From NCBI RefSeq assembly GCF_003268675.1, contig NZ_CP029378.1, forward strand, positions 7,316,001 through 7,380,000: a stretch of DNA of 64,000 nt, given 5' to 3'. The first letter of the stretch is position 1. Each line of letters begins with the position of its first letter. The notes beneath the pieces are model-generated. The model was not told the origin of the DNA. It did not search any database and was given only the letters and a program-made list of their open reading frames with translations. This DNA comes from Streptomyces bacillaris. GTDB taxonomy: Bacteria; Actinomycetota; Actinomycetes; Streptomycetales; Streptomycetaceae. Below, piece after piece: positions 5,985 through 13,023 of the stretch. The translations under genes were made by a program, and so were the position numbers.

Positions 5985-7382
5985 ATGACGGAAATTCTTG
6001 TGCACGATGCCACCGAAGGCGCGATAGCTGCTGCCCCGCGGGTGGTCGAGCACCCGGCGTGGCCCGCGCTCAGGGATGCCGTCGAGGAGCTTCGCCCGTG
6101 GCAGTCCAAGGACGGCTCCATCGACTTCGATGCCGAGGGCGCCCCGTCCCCGGCCGATGTCGAGCGCGTCCTGGAGCGCGTGATCGGCGCGGTGGAGGAG
6201 CTCTCCCCGCTGCTGCCGCACGACGCCGCCTACCACCGTGCGCTCGTCACCGACCTGCGCCGCTGGGCCGCCGACGGCTTCCGCGTACCGGACTTCCTGG
6301 ACTCGCTGCTCGCCTTCCAGCCCGCGCGGAACCGGGTCGACGGCCTCCAGCACCTGGTCGTCTTCCCCATGTACACGCAGAACGGCAACCCGGACCGCAA
6401 CTTCGAAGCCGTCGTGCTGAAGATGGTCTGGCCCGAGTGGCTCGCCGACCTCGAGGCCACCCGCTACGACAACCCCCTCTTCTGCGGGATCACCTTCGAG
6501 GACTTCACCGCCGGTTACGACACCAACTCCGCGGTCCTCTTCCCCGAGACCATCGCCGTGCGCGAGGCCCCCGAGCGCTTCAGCTGGGGCGGCATCTTCT
6601 GCGACCGCGAGGCCGCCCGCTTCCGCCGTGTCACCGAGGCCTCCGTCGAGCTGCTCGGCCTGGAGCTGCCCGAGGACATCCGCGAGATGGTCGGCGACCA
6701 GAAGCGGTGCGAGCAGGCGTTCGTCCTGTGGGACATGGTCCACGACCGCACCCACAGCCACGGTGACCTGCCGTTCGACCCGTTCATGATCAAGCAGCGC
6801 CAGCCGTTCTGGATGTACGGCCTGGAGGAGCTGCGCTGCGACCTCACCGCCTTCAAGGAGGCCGTGAAGCTGGAGGCCGAGGGCAACAGCCACGGCCGCG
6901 ATGTCCAGTACGCCGTCCTCTTCGACCGGATGTTCCGCTTCCCGGTCACCGGCGACCGCGTCCGCAACTACGACGGCCTCGGCGGCCAGCTCCTCTTCGC
7001 CTACCTGCACAAGCACGATGTCGTCCGCTGGACCGACAACACCCTGAAGATCGACTGGGAGCGTGCCCCGCAGGTCACCAACCAGCTCTGCGCCGAGATC
7101 GAGAAGCTCTACCGCGACGGCATCGACCGCCCCAAGCTGGTCCACTGGTTCGCCGCCTACGACCTGGTCTCCACCTACCTCGCCCCGCACCCCGGATCCA
7201 CCTGGGCCAAGGGTCCCGACGCCCTCGACCTCACTCAGCCCCCTCGCAAGCTCGTCGACGACGTGCTTCCGGACGAGTTTCCCCTGAGCATGTTCTATGA
7301 GGCGCTCGCCAAGAAGCTGAAGCACGTGATTGCCTCCGCCAAGGGAATTACCGCCGCGAGCGCCGAGAAGGCAGCCGCGTGA
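5985..7382 (+). CDS. DUF6421-family protein
   Basis: A 465-residue soluble protein without signal or membrane segments. I recognise it as the DUF6421 family, nearly confined to Streptomyces and relatives. The sequence has several conserved aromatic and acidic blocks, for example HLVVFPMYTQNGN, EDFTAGYDTNSAVLFPET and WDMVHDRTHSHGDLPFDPF; the HDRTHSHGD cluster could bind a metal, but this is inference. GGAGGAAG ends 4 bp before the ATG. Its stop overlaps an upstream alternative GTG of the following SDR gene, and the three genes DUF6421 - SDR - threonine aldolase are packed with almost no spacing, so they probably act in one pathway, perhaps modification of a beta-hydroxy amino acid. No reaction is known to me. 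Confidence 0.85.
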   Translation: MTEILVHDATEGAIAAAPRVVEHPAWPALRDAVEELRPWQSKDGSIDFDAEGAPSPADVERVLERVIGAVEELSPLLPHDAAYHRALVTDLRRWAADGFRVPDFLDSLLAFQPARNRVDGLQHLVVFPMYTQNGNPDRNFEAVVLKMVWPEWLADLEATRYDNPLFCGITFEDFTAGYDTNSAVLFPETIAVREAPERFSWGGIFCDREAARFRRVTEASVELLGLELPEDIREMVGDQKRCEQAFVLWDMVHDRTHSHGDLPFDPFMIKQRQPFWMYGLEELRCDLTAFKEAVKLEAEGNSHGRDVQYAVLFDRMFRFPVTGDRVRNYDGLGGQLLFAYLHKHDVVRWTDNTLKIDWERAPQVTNQLCAEIEKLYRDGIDRPKLVHWFAAYDLVSTYLAPHPGSTWAKGPDALDLTQPPRKLVDDVLPDEFPLSMFYEALAKKLKHVIASAKGITAASAEKAAA

Positions 7383-10765: not shown

Positions 10766-10996
10766 CTGGGGAAGACCCTTCTTCAGTGCCTGGGGAGGGT
10801 TCTCCCGGCGGAAGTTACGCAGCCGTAGGTTTTCGGCATTGTGGCGATGGTGCCCCATGTGCGGGCCCGTGACCAGTCCCGGTGGGCCCGGGCGGCGAGA
10901 TTCTCGTCACGTGGGCGTCGCCTCCGAGCTGCGGGAATGTCCTGCGGCCGGCCGGTGCTGACTCCTTGCGAAGGGCTCTGGACCAGGAGGCGACAC

Positions 10997-11323
10997 GTGG
11001 ACGGCGGAACACCCGCGCAGCGGCTCGACGCGGCCCAACTCGGCGCGGAACTGGGGGAACGGGCCACACTCGTGTAGTTCTCCACCGCCTTCTGCCAGCC
11101 GTGCCGGGCCACCCGCCGCACCCTCGGGGAGGTGGCCGCCATGGTCGACGGGGTCGCCCACATCGAGATCGACGCCGAGGCGCATCTCACGCTCGTACGG
11201 CAGCTCGACATCACGCGGACCCCGACCGTCCTCGTGCTCGACAGCGCGGGCGAAGTGGTCCGGCGCGCCTCGGGCCAGCCCCGTACCGCCGACGTCGTCG
11301 CGGCGCTGGGACGGGCCATATGA
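10997..11323 (+). pseudogene. Thioredoxin-like gene interrupted by one amber codon
   Basis: Reading from the GTG at 10997, which has a perfect AGGAGG 6 bp upstream, gives 26 residues ending ELGERATLV, then TAG at 11075-11077, then in the same frame FSTAFCQPCRATRR, the thioredoxin active site with the redox pair C33 and C36, and a complete C-terminal half including the cis-Pro region TRTPTVLVLD, ending at the TGA at 11321-11323. The expected residue at the stop is Gln, so one C-to-T change (CAG to TAG) explains it. Codon use on both sides is normal and there is no other lesion, so inactivation is recent, or the base is a sequencing error. A restart at the Met at 11141-11143 would lose the active site. 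Confidence 0.75.
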
Positions 11324-11359
11324 CGGACCGTGACACATCTCCCACATTCCGGGACGCAC

Positions 11360-11389
11360 TTGACTGCACCCGCCACGCATCGTCAGTCT
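11360..11389 (+). promoter_or_regulatory. Candidate promoter for a leaderless leader-peptide transcript
   Basis: TTGACT at 11360-11365 is a close match to the principal sigma factor -35. After 18 bp comes CAGTCT at 11384-11389 as a poor -10. Transcription would begin about 7 nt later, at or next to the ATG at 11396, so the leader peptide mRNA would have no 5' untranslated region. This fits the absence of any ribosome-binding site before that ATG. Confidence 0.45.
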
Positions 11390-11395
11390 GACGCT

Positions 11396-11476
11396 ATGCC
11401 GCCAGAACTCCTTCTCTACGGCCGGGTCCACGTGGACCTCGCACGCCACGCGAGTGCGCGCTGTCCGGGTGCCTGA
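11396..11476 (+). CDS. Putative cysteine-type leader peptide, 26 aa
   Basis: A 26-codon ORF, MPPELLLYGR then VHVDLARHASARCPGA and TGA. The block R-x-HVDL-x-R-x-ASA-x-C matches the widespread actinobacterial family of short leader peptides found ahead of sulfur-related genes. In mycobacteria related leaderless Cys-rich ORFs attenuate the downstream operon in response to cysteine, as I recall. Here the single Cys is four codons from the stop, and the flavin reductase gene starts 44 bp after the stop. The likely role is therefore in cis: translation speed at the Cys codon would control the next gene. No clear attenuator hairpin was worked out in the short gap. Confidence 0.75.
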   Translation: MPPELLLYGRVHVDLARHASARCPGA

Positions 11477-11520
11477 GCAACCACGGCCCCGTACGCCCTC
11501 CTCGCAGAAGGACACCTCCA

Positions 11521-12032
11521 TGACGGCCTCACCCGAACTCGCTCCCGCCCCCGTCCTCAAGGCCTCGCCCGAGCTGCTGCGCTCGGTCTTCCGGCGCCAC
11601 GCCGCGGGCGTCGCGGTGATCACCGCCGCCGGGGACCGGCCGGTCGGCTTCACCGCCACCTCGCTCAACTCCGTCGCCGCCGAGCCCCCGCTCGTCTCCT
11701 TCGGCATCGGGACGTCCTCCTCCAGCTGGCCGGTGCTGGCCGAGGCCGAACACGTCGGCGTCCACATACTCGCTGAGCACCAGCAGGAGCTGGCCGCCAC
11801 CTTCGCCCGCAGCGGCGCCGACCGCTTCGGCCCGTCCACCGACTGGAGCAGCGGCCCCGAAGGCGTTCCGCTGCTGGCCGGCGTCTCCGCCTGGCTGGTC
11901 TGCCGGGTCGTGGCCCGGGTCCCGGCGGGCGACCACCGCATCGTGATCGCGGAGGCCGTGGCGGGCGACCCCTCGGGGGCCGGCCGGCCGCTGGTCTACC
12001 ACCAGGGACGGTTCACGGCTCTGCGAGACTGA
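11521..12032 (+). CDS. Flavin reductase-family (FMN-binding split barrel) protein
   Basis: A 170-residue flavin reductase-like protein that uses NAD(P)H to reduce FMN or FAD, normally feeding reduced flavin to a partner monooxygenase. The family signatures are the N-terminal FRRHAAGVAVITA, VGFTATSLNSVAAEPPLVSF and the late GDHRIVIAEAVAG. AAGGA lies about 8 bp before the ATG at 11521; an in-frame GTG at 11454 would overlap the leader peptide. The leader peptide implies control by cysteine or sulfur supply, so a sulfonate or other organosulfur monooxygenase elsewhere in the genome may be the partner; that is inference, as no monooxygenase is nearby. Confidence 0.85.
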
Positions 12033-12119
12033 GCGCGTGCGAGCGCGCCGTGCAGGACCGTTTCCGCCGTAGGCAAGGTCACAGTGCGGAGCGCTTGCTC
12101 AGGGGTAAGAGACTGGGTG

Positions 12120-12131
12120 TACTGGCGAGTA
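12120..12131 (+). promoter_or_regulatory. Short palindrome upstream of etfB
   Basis: TACT-GGCG-AGTA lies 107 bp before the etfB start in an otherwise gene-free 205-bp gap. It is followed by AATATC, which may belong to a promoter. It could be a regulator site, but 4-bp arms are weak evidence. Confidence 0.25.
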
Positions 12132-12237
12132 ATATCGGGCGGGGCCTCGGTCGGCCCGGCCGGAAACGGCCCTGTAAGGCGCCTATGCTGCGTGCAACAA
12201 GGCAGCCCAGAAATGACGATGCAGTAGGAGAGCCGGC

Positions 12238-13023
12238 GTGAGCTTGAGGATCGTTGTCTGTGTGAAGTATGTGCCCGACGCGACCGGTGACCGGCGTTTC
12301 GCCGATGACCTGACGGTGGACCGTGAGGATGTGGACGGTCTGTTGTCGGAGCTGGACGAGTACGCGGTCGAGCAGGCGTTGCAGATCGCGGACGGGGCGG
12401 ACGGCGCGGAGATCACTGTGGTGACGGTGGGTCCGGAGGACGCGAAGGACGCGCTGCGCAAGGCTCTGTCGATGGGTGCGGACAAGGCGGTCCATGTCGA
12501 GGACGACGATCTGCACGGCACGGATGTGATGGGGACGTCGCTGGTGCTGGCGAAGGCGGTCGAGAAGACCGGTTACGACCTGGTGATCTGCGGGATGGCC
12601 TCGACCGACGGTGTCATGGGCGTCCTCCCGGCCCTGCTGGCGGAGCGTCTGGGTGTGCCGCAGGTGACGCTGCTGTCCGAGGTCGCGGTGAACGGCGGTG
12701 TGGTGAGCGGGCGGCGTGACGGTGACACGGCATCGGAGCAGCTCGAGGCGTCGCTGCCGGCGGTGGTGTCGGTGACCGACCAGTCCGGTGAGGCGCGTTA
12801 CCCCTCGTTCAAGGGGATCATGGCGGCGAAGAAGAAGCCGGTTCAGTCGCTGGATCTGGATGATCTGGGGATCGAGGCGGACGAGGTCGGTCTGGAGGGT
12901 GCGTGGACGGCTGTGGACGAGGCGGCGGAGCGGCCGGCGCGGACGGCGGGCACGATCGTGAAGGACGAGGGTGAGGGCGGCAGGCAGCTGGCCGAGTTCC
13001 TCGCGGGCCAGAAGTTCATCTGA
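12238..13023 (+). CDS. etfB: Electron transfer flavoprotein, beta subunit
   Basis: A 261-residue EtfB/FixA-type subunit that with EtfA carries electrons from acyl-CoA and other dehydrogenases to the membrane ETF:quinone oxidoreductase. Recognisable blocks are the start SLRIVVCVKYVPD, the DEYAVEQALQ helix, the VTVGPEDAKDALRKALSMGAD nucleotide-binding region and the CGMASTDGVMGVLPALLAERLG block, all in family order and at normal length. The GTG start is preceded by AGGAGA. The gene and its partner use more T in third positions than their neighbours, compatible with high expression or a different codon history. The pair is followed by a strong terminator. Confidence 0.95.
   Translation: MSLRIVVCVKYVPDATGDRRFADDLTVDREDVDGLLSELDEYAVEQALQIADGADGAEITVVTVGPEDAKDALRKALSMGADKAVHVEDDDLHGTDVMGTSLVLAKAVEKTGYDLVICGMASTDGVMGVLPALLAERLGVPQVTLLSEVAVNGGVVSGRRDGDTASEQLEASLPAVVSVTDQSGEARYPSFKGIMAAKKKPVQSLDLDDLGIEADEVGLEGAWTAVDEAAERPARTAGTIVKDEGEGGRQLAEFLAGQKFI

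Follow-up and report, generated by a model that had tools for sequence, protein, structure and literature searches.

A putative cysteine-responsive leader peptide with a single UGU codon upstream of a Streptomyces flavin reductase gene

Introduction

What is a 26-codon open reading frame doing directly 5' of a flavin reductase gene in Streptomyces? The ORF (peptide MPPELLLYGRVHVDLARHASARCPGA, also given as MPPELLLYGRVHVDLARHASARC-PGA; stop codon TGA) and the flavin reductase gene (FR) lie in a 64,000-nucleotide stretch of Streptomyces bacillaris DNA, here called the window. A sequence-only reading of this locus had proposed that the ORF is a leaderless, cysteine-type leader peptide that controls a supplier of reduced flavin.

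Leaders of related kinds have been described in other actinobacteria. Mycobacterial polycysteine leaders have been described as leaderless translational attenuators, and were found to be cysteine-responsive in M. smegmatis (Canestrari 2020, as summarised in PMC9031893 and PMC13236596). A conserved, Cys-rich leaderless ORF precedes cysA2 (Shell 2015; PMC4633059), and leaders with runs of Cys codons, lacking terminators, precede cys operons of Mycobacterium and others (Seliverstov 2005; PMC1262725). Streptomyces lividans also has leaderless leader peptides (trpL, leuL and others); these lie in front of tRNA-synthetase and amino-acid genes, and terminators are predicted for several of them; none of the eight leader peptides listed is called a cysteine leader (PMC8079986).

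Results

The window ORF matches a family of leader peptides

The window ORF aligns along the full length of the NCBIfam profile NF042934 ("putative leader peptide"), with residues 5–23 falling on profile positions 1–19 (E 5.6e-6) and with a Cys where the profile ends in Cys (19/19 positions). The score of 25.9 bits is 1.1 below the curated cut-off of 27, and the window copy, just short of it, is not filed as a family member by the score rule. Five of ten chosen FR-leader orthologues exceed the cut-off (27.3–29.4 bits), and hence the FR leader class does hold NF042934 members. A six-frame search of the 7.89-Mb genome returns seven matches of at least 24 bits, the window leader among them (24.2 bits, E 3.8e-4); the next best match reaches 15.0 bits and lies within a 2030-residue frame. 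At E≤1e-3, matches are present in 61/61 genomes of the genus (2 to 13 per genome) versus 0/14 control genomes; at E≤10, weak matches occur in 10 of the 14 controls, none of them above the cut-off. Across the class, 131 of 197 genomes contain a match at E≤1e-4. Judged by these profile searches, the window ORF matches the leader family beyond chance, and comparison supports its reading as a cysteine/sulfur-type leader. The earlier placement of the ORF in a cysteine-type leader family is thus borne out, both by the profile match and by conservation in front of FR orthologues (see below).

The gene downstream was also correctly named, its product belonging to the general flavin reductase family; among solved structures, 2qck is the closest relative in sequence (4.8e-35). 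The distance from leader stop to FR start, previously given as 44 bp, is 43 bp (coordinates in Table 1).

Table 1. Features of the flavin reductase locus in the window, and the six other family leaders of the same genome
Feature	Position	Strand	Basis or context
Conserved block GTGACACATCTCCCACAT / GTGAcgCATCTCCCA, 5' of the -35 element	11330–11347	+	Ungapped conservation, 49 FR loci
-35 element TTGACT	11360–11365	+	TTGAC 35–37 nt before start codon in 49/52 FR orthologues
Perfect dyad CGTCAG-T-CTGACG across -10 element and discriminator	11381–11393	+	Sequence
-10 element CAGTCT (CANNCT in relatives)	11384–11389	+	18 bp after the -35 element; C, A and the last T are each kept in 96% of 49 loci
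Leader ORF, presumably leaderless	11396–11476	+	NF042934 match; orthologues
Putative anti-Shine-Dalgarno, codons 5–7 CTC CTT CTC (core TCCTTCT, 11409–11415)	11408–11416	+	Rare CTT; fold test
Motif cysteine codon TGT, proposed pause/sensor	11462–11464	+	TGT in every intact-motif leader
Shine-Dalgarno AGAAGGA of FR	11506–11512	+	Predicted to be sequestered by 11409–11415
Flavin reductase, PF01613, 170 aa	11520–12032	+	Pfam 1.4e-39
Leader L001			Precedes nitrite/sulfite reductase
Leader L002			Precedes cysteine dioxygenase and rhodanese
Leader L003			Precedes ThiS-like protein and cysteine synthase (cysKM, above cut-off)
Leader L004 (L096)			Sulfonate transporter operon with SsuA above cut-off and SsuD-like enzyme
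Leader L005			Precedes two-domain rhodanese
Leader L007			Precedes sodium:dicarboxylate-type symporter

Family searches of the genes downstream of the six other leaders place five in front of sulfur-type genes and one in front of a symporter. The SsuD-like monooxygenase of the L004 operon scores 449 bits, below the model cut-off of 518. This operon (L096, about 6391–7332, minus strand) carries its family leader at the head of the sulfonate transporter genes, and no flavin reductase was found among the ORFs read in it. Its permease is seemingly split over three reading frames, and so the gene may be broken.

FR itself may have a role in sulfur metabolism. The idea of FR as a reduced-flavin supplier fits its family. 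A role as sulfonate reductase is not required: the genome encodes an SsuE elsewhere (L092; 205 bits, cut-off 164), which rules FR out as the sole sulfonate reductase, and SsuD may have a partner other than FR.

Promoter spacing is consistent with a leaderless transcript

The TTGACT and CAGTCT elements and the 18-bp spacer described earlier are all present, with 6 nt between CAGTCT and the ATG at 11396. Of the -10 consensus, CAGTCT matches A2 and T6 alone, and a generic sigma-70 scan did not call this promoter. The distance from TTGAC to the start codon in the 49 promoter-bearing orthologues is 36 nt in 46 cases, 37 nt in two and 35 nt in one; leaderless transcription fits this constant spacing. 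The window leader is thus very probably leaderless. That transcription starts on the ATG itself, as previously claimed, we infer from the spacing and its conservation.

Two further elements may bind regulators. Firstly, the dyad across the -10 element is largely conserved (the G, A and C that follow the -10 element are found in 92, 80 and 92% of 49 FR loci), and may be an operator. Secondly, the block upstream of the -35 element, which in most of the 49 loci lies some 50–66 nt 5' of the leader start, retains GTGA at 90–94% and C-T-C-C-C-A at 76–98%, making it a possible regulator or activator site.

Searches for other regulatory elements gave no candidates: no Rfam family matches at E≤1 in 10800–12300, and no intrinsic terminator is found in 11200–12300, including the leader–FR gap, so that the hallmark of a trp-type transcription attenuator is missing there. 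The thioredoxin-like gene 5' of the promoter (10997–11323) contains an in-frame TAG (11075–11077) just ahead of its CQPC motif. Relatives mostly have VQFS at this position, which makes the TAG look like either a recent nonsense mutation or a mistake in the sequencing.

Leaders upstream of FR orthologues are intact, decayed or deleted

FR matches (E≤1e-30) are found in 53 of 61 genus genomes. The comparison set consists of 52 FR orthologues of at least 67% identity (the window's own and 51 others) and 11 more distant relatives, and in all 11 of the latter the motif pattern is absent within 450 nt upstream. A promoter-anchored start codon is present in 49 of the 52 orthologues. These 49 fall into three groups: (i) 32 keep the H[VIL]DLxR motif, (ii) 14 have a short frame in which the motif has decayed, and (iii) three have kept the promoter and lost the leader body (L026, L057 and L059). 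The count of 32 among the 63 FR loci leaves out L042 and L050, where the pattern fell inside the thioredoxin gene. Promoter and leader are both absent in three of the 52 (L042, L049 and L050). Together, the 14 decayed leaders, the three lost leader bodies and the three loci lacking both elements indicate that some lineages can do without the leader.

A second, named set comprises 80 loci, 75 of which contain a leader ORF; four of its leader–FR sequences are identical to sequences in the first set. It includes records titled Streptantibioticus (L319), Streptosporangium (L298) and [Kitasatospora] (L278). The H[VIL]DLxR pattern finds 59 of these leaders; a stricter expression finds 55 and misses some intact ones. 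At the level of the order, one of five genera contains FR at E≤1e-45.

UGU encodes the motif cysteine in all intact-motif leaders checked

All the leaders checked that have an intact motif use UGU for its Cys. Among strict FR leaders the motif codon is TGT in 32/32, versus TGC for 57/57 Cys codons in the 52 FR genes that follow, and in the named set the corresponding figures are TGT in 59/59 leaders with H[VIL]DLxR and TGC for 83/83 Cys in the FR genes. In named leaders of exactly 26 codons, codon 23 is TGT in 66 of 68 and CGT in two. The pattern extends to other leaders of the genus, where the motif Cys is TGT in 30/30 and 60/60 cases (two sets), the remaining Cys codons in those 60 ORFs being 76 TGC and 21 TGT. 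It extends also to the class-wide search, with TGT in 29/29 placed loci from nine families (three loci from the window's own family; 29 of 30 loci counted, L201 being misplaced and left out). The leaders are related, and none of these counts is therefore independent of the others. Even in the decayed FR leaders, TGT still stands at the Cys position in 11 of 14. By comparison, among the 39 window ORFs whose composition resembles that of genes, TGT accounts for 12 of 140 Cys codons. A single tRNA decodes both UGU and UGC. No statement of a UGU rule for this leader family was found in the literature searched.

Codons 5–7 are predicted to sequester the Shine-Dalgarno sequence of FR

A second codon-level signal lies near the 5' end of the leader, in the ELLL stretch, which the sequence-only reading did not mention. 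The codons CTC CTT CTC are complementary to AGAAGGA, the Shine-Dalgarno sequence of FR. The middle Leu codon is CTT in 27 of 31 cases with Leu (52-orthologue set) and 52 of 55 (named set); in FR genes, CTT makes up 1.6% of Leu codons. Synonymous variation is low here: pS at ELLL is 0.175, versus 0.34–0.51 in codons 2–3, 8–9, 10–16 and 17–22; codon 24 gives 0.10, and at the Cys codon the value is zero. Rows for the variation test were picked by motif, which biases pN low and leaves pS at ELLL unaffected.

The hexamer CCTTCT occurs within the first 12 codons of 58 of 75 named leaders, and is kept in eight of the 14 decayed ones. Five leaders have a Leu-to-Pro change at codon 5 and have nonetheless kept it (L036, L058, L061, L267 and L287), so it appears to be nucleotides, rather than leucine, that are retained. 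A usable gap and Shine-Dalgarno sequence (SD) are present in 101 of 124 loci, and 80 of these 101 can pair at no fewer than seven of eight positions (G-U allowed). No covariation between SD and anti-SD is seen, since the SD hardly varies.

Folding predictions point in the same direction. At the window locus (L012), the predicted probability that the SD is unpaired is 0.03 for the native sequence versus 0.31 for synonymous controls. Across the 28 leaders folded (of 32 strict leaders; ORF ≤26 codons, gap ≤63, the rest being too long or having a misplaced FR start), the mean is 0.11 native versus 0.37 for synonymous rewrites. SD sequestration is significant in 23 of the 28 (p≤0.05); the other five have no excess pairing, one of them with the effect reversed (L022).

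How a ribosome on the leader would affect this pairing was modelled with a static fold, which does not extend to co-transcriptional folding. A ribosome footprint at UGU alone leaves the SD closed (0.08). Adding a queued ribosome raises the value to 0.27, and queued plus initiating ribosomes to 0.47, and the value is 0.49 when the only ribosome placed is an initiating one. These values do not support simple release of FR by one ribosome. The static model therefore requires a queue that reaches codons 5–7; equally, given the effect of an initiating ribosome alone, steady initiation could open the SD with no cysteine signal.

Other leader classes differ in this respect. In the cysteine-dioxygenase (CDO) class (L002 and 22 related leaders), most leaders have just after UGU a 3' end, CCGTCCTG, with complementarity to the SD, CAGGACGG. 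The SD is predicted to be unpaired with a probability of 0.06 in the native sequences, compared with 0.20 for synonymous controls; a ribosome placed at UGU brings the value to 0.33 (23 of 29 loci placed, many with an internal GTG as leader start). TGT lies outside the pairing stretch, and so SD pairing does not explain its invariance in the CDO leaders. No clear sequestration is predicted for CysO-type leaders (20 loci; 0.26 native versus 0.23 control) or Sir-type leaders (six loci; 0.41 versus 0.42). A family-wide switch by SD sequestration is therefore rejected: it is predicted in the FR and CDO leaders and not in the CysO-type or Sir-type leaders.

Discussion

A proposed translational attenuator

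We think it probable, while well short of certain, that the window leader is a cysteine-responsive, translation-level attenuator with a single UGU codon, akin to the polycysteine leaders of mycobacteria. The proposed sequence of events is as follows. Transcription would start on the A of the leader ATG, and a ribosome would initiate at the 5' AUG. With ample cysteinyl-tRNA, the leader would be read and cleared, leaving codons 5–7 (CUCCUUCUC) free to pair with the SD of FR, a pairing predicted from the folds and the codon evidence; FR translation would presumably then be low. When cysteine is short, the ribosome would pause with the rare UGU in its A site, perhaps aided by the nascent chain RxHVDLxRxxSAx. 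Trailing ribosomes would queue over codons 5–7, the SD would be exposed and FR would be made. Under sulfur limitation FR may then provide reduced flavin, possibly for FMNH2-dependent sulfonate monooxygenases. Two observations sit awkwardly with a cysteine attenuator: one of the six sister leaders precedes a symporter with no shown sulfur role, and the window leader has a single Cys codon in its 26.

The FR leader shares with NF042934 the full-length match and the Cys at the profile end, to which the FR class adds its own ELLL anti-SD extension. The mycobacterial polycysteine leaderless ORFs (NCBIfam models Ms5788A and Ms4527A) are likewise short and cysteine-linked. The spacing in the window class (TTGAC 36 nt from the start codon in 46/49) is consistent with a leaderless transcript of the Ms5788A type, and a structure sequestering the downstream SD is predicted for the window leader too. 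In contrast, the Ms5788A type has a run of Cys codons where the window leader has one, and in the window leader a long stretch separates the Cys codon from the putative anti-SD, which is at the 5' end. The Ms5788A model (NF042933) finds one of ten FR leaders, at 19.9 bits, a weak score against its cut-off of 45. A link between the two groups is provided by family f4, in which six NF042934 matches have peptides of the LTKRRAVDLCRVAGCCCCCCSC type and the ORF 191–616 nt downstream is read as CysA2/SseA-like in five of six, an arrangement that recalls the cysA2 leader of Shell 2015. A further parallel is the LEU element of leuA in Actinobacteria, in which leader leucine codons pair with the downstream SD (Seliverstov 2005; PMC1262725) as proposed for FR; the LEU element serves a leucine operon and involves a pseudoknot, whereas the proposed sensor codon of the FR leader is UGU.

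A broader reading, which we put forward tentatively and doubt more than we believe, is that NF042934-type leaders are cysteine-sensing arrest peptides across the Actinomycetes. The pause would need RxHVDLxRxxSAx in the exit tunnel and an obligatory UGU in the A site, the codon at which conservation across the family would end, with no run of cysteines, and the FR class would read the pause remotely, through a queue that reaches the 5' anti-SD.

Alternative explanations

Leader translation might instead govern Rho-dependent or other early termination of transcription, with SD pairing secondary. The CysO-type and Sir-type leaders, with no clear SD sequestration, would suit such a mechanism, and Rho was considered for mycobacterial cys leaders by Seliverstov 2005, where the authors call their own prediction weak (PMC1262725). 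The lack of intrinsic terminators in 11200–12300, the mere 43 nt between its stop and FR, and the codon-level selection for SD pairing all speak against transcriptional attenuation, and we regard it as unlikely.

We place lower still the idea that the short ORF merely supplies ribosomes or sets the 5' end of a leaderless transcript, with regulation exerted by a transcription factor at the dyad or the upstream block and no sensing of cysteine. Strong conservation of both elements speaks for this account, as does survival of the promoter where the leader body has been deleted (L026, L057, L059). It leaves unaccounted for the UGU codon wherever the motif is intact, the peptide motif itself, and the recurrence of the same leader family at five sulfur-type loci.

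That the leader is a decaying relic, once functional and no longer regulating anything in this strain, is improbable: although 17 of the 49 orthologues with a promoter no longer have an intact motif (14 decayed, three truncated), the window copy retains all 19 profile positions together with UGU, the anti-SD and a tightly closed predicted SD (0.03). Leucine-responsive attenuation through the ELLL run seems to us very improbable indeed, for although three adjacent Leu codons including the rare CTT recall the actinobacterial LEU element, whose run of leucine codons pairs with the leuA SD (PMC1262725), the context of the family is mostly sulfur, and the Leu-to-Pro leaders that keep CCTTCT count against it.

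Implications

The UGU rule, which is new here and absent from the sequence-only reading, describes a codon kept in genomes rich in GC, whose usual preference is UGC. It leads to a direct test of whether a single cysteine codon can serve as the sensor where mycobacteria use a run, and of whether peptide or codon is what matters. The intact, decayed and deleted leaders in front of one orthologous gene offer a natural comparison series. If the cysteine-responsive attenuator proposed here is correct, a stand-alone flavin reductase would become part of the Streptomyces sulfur regulon.
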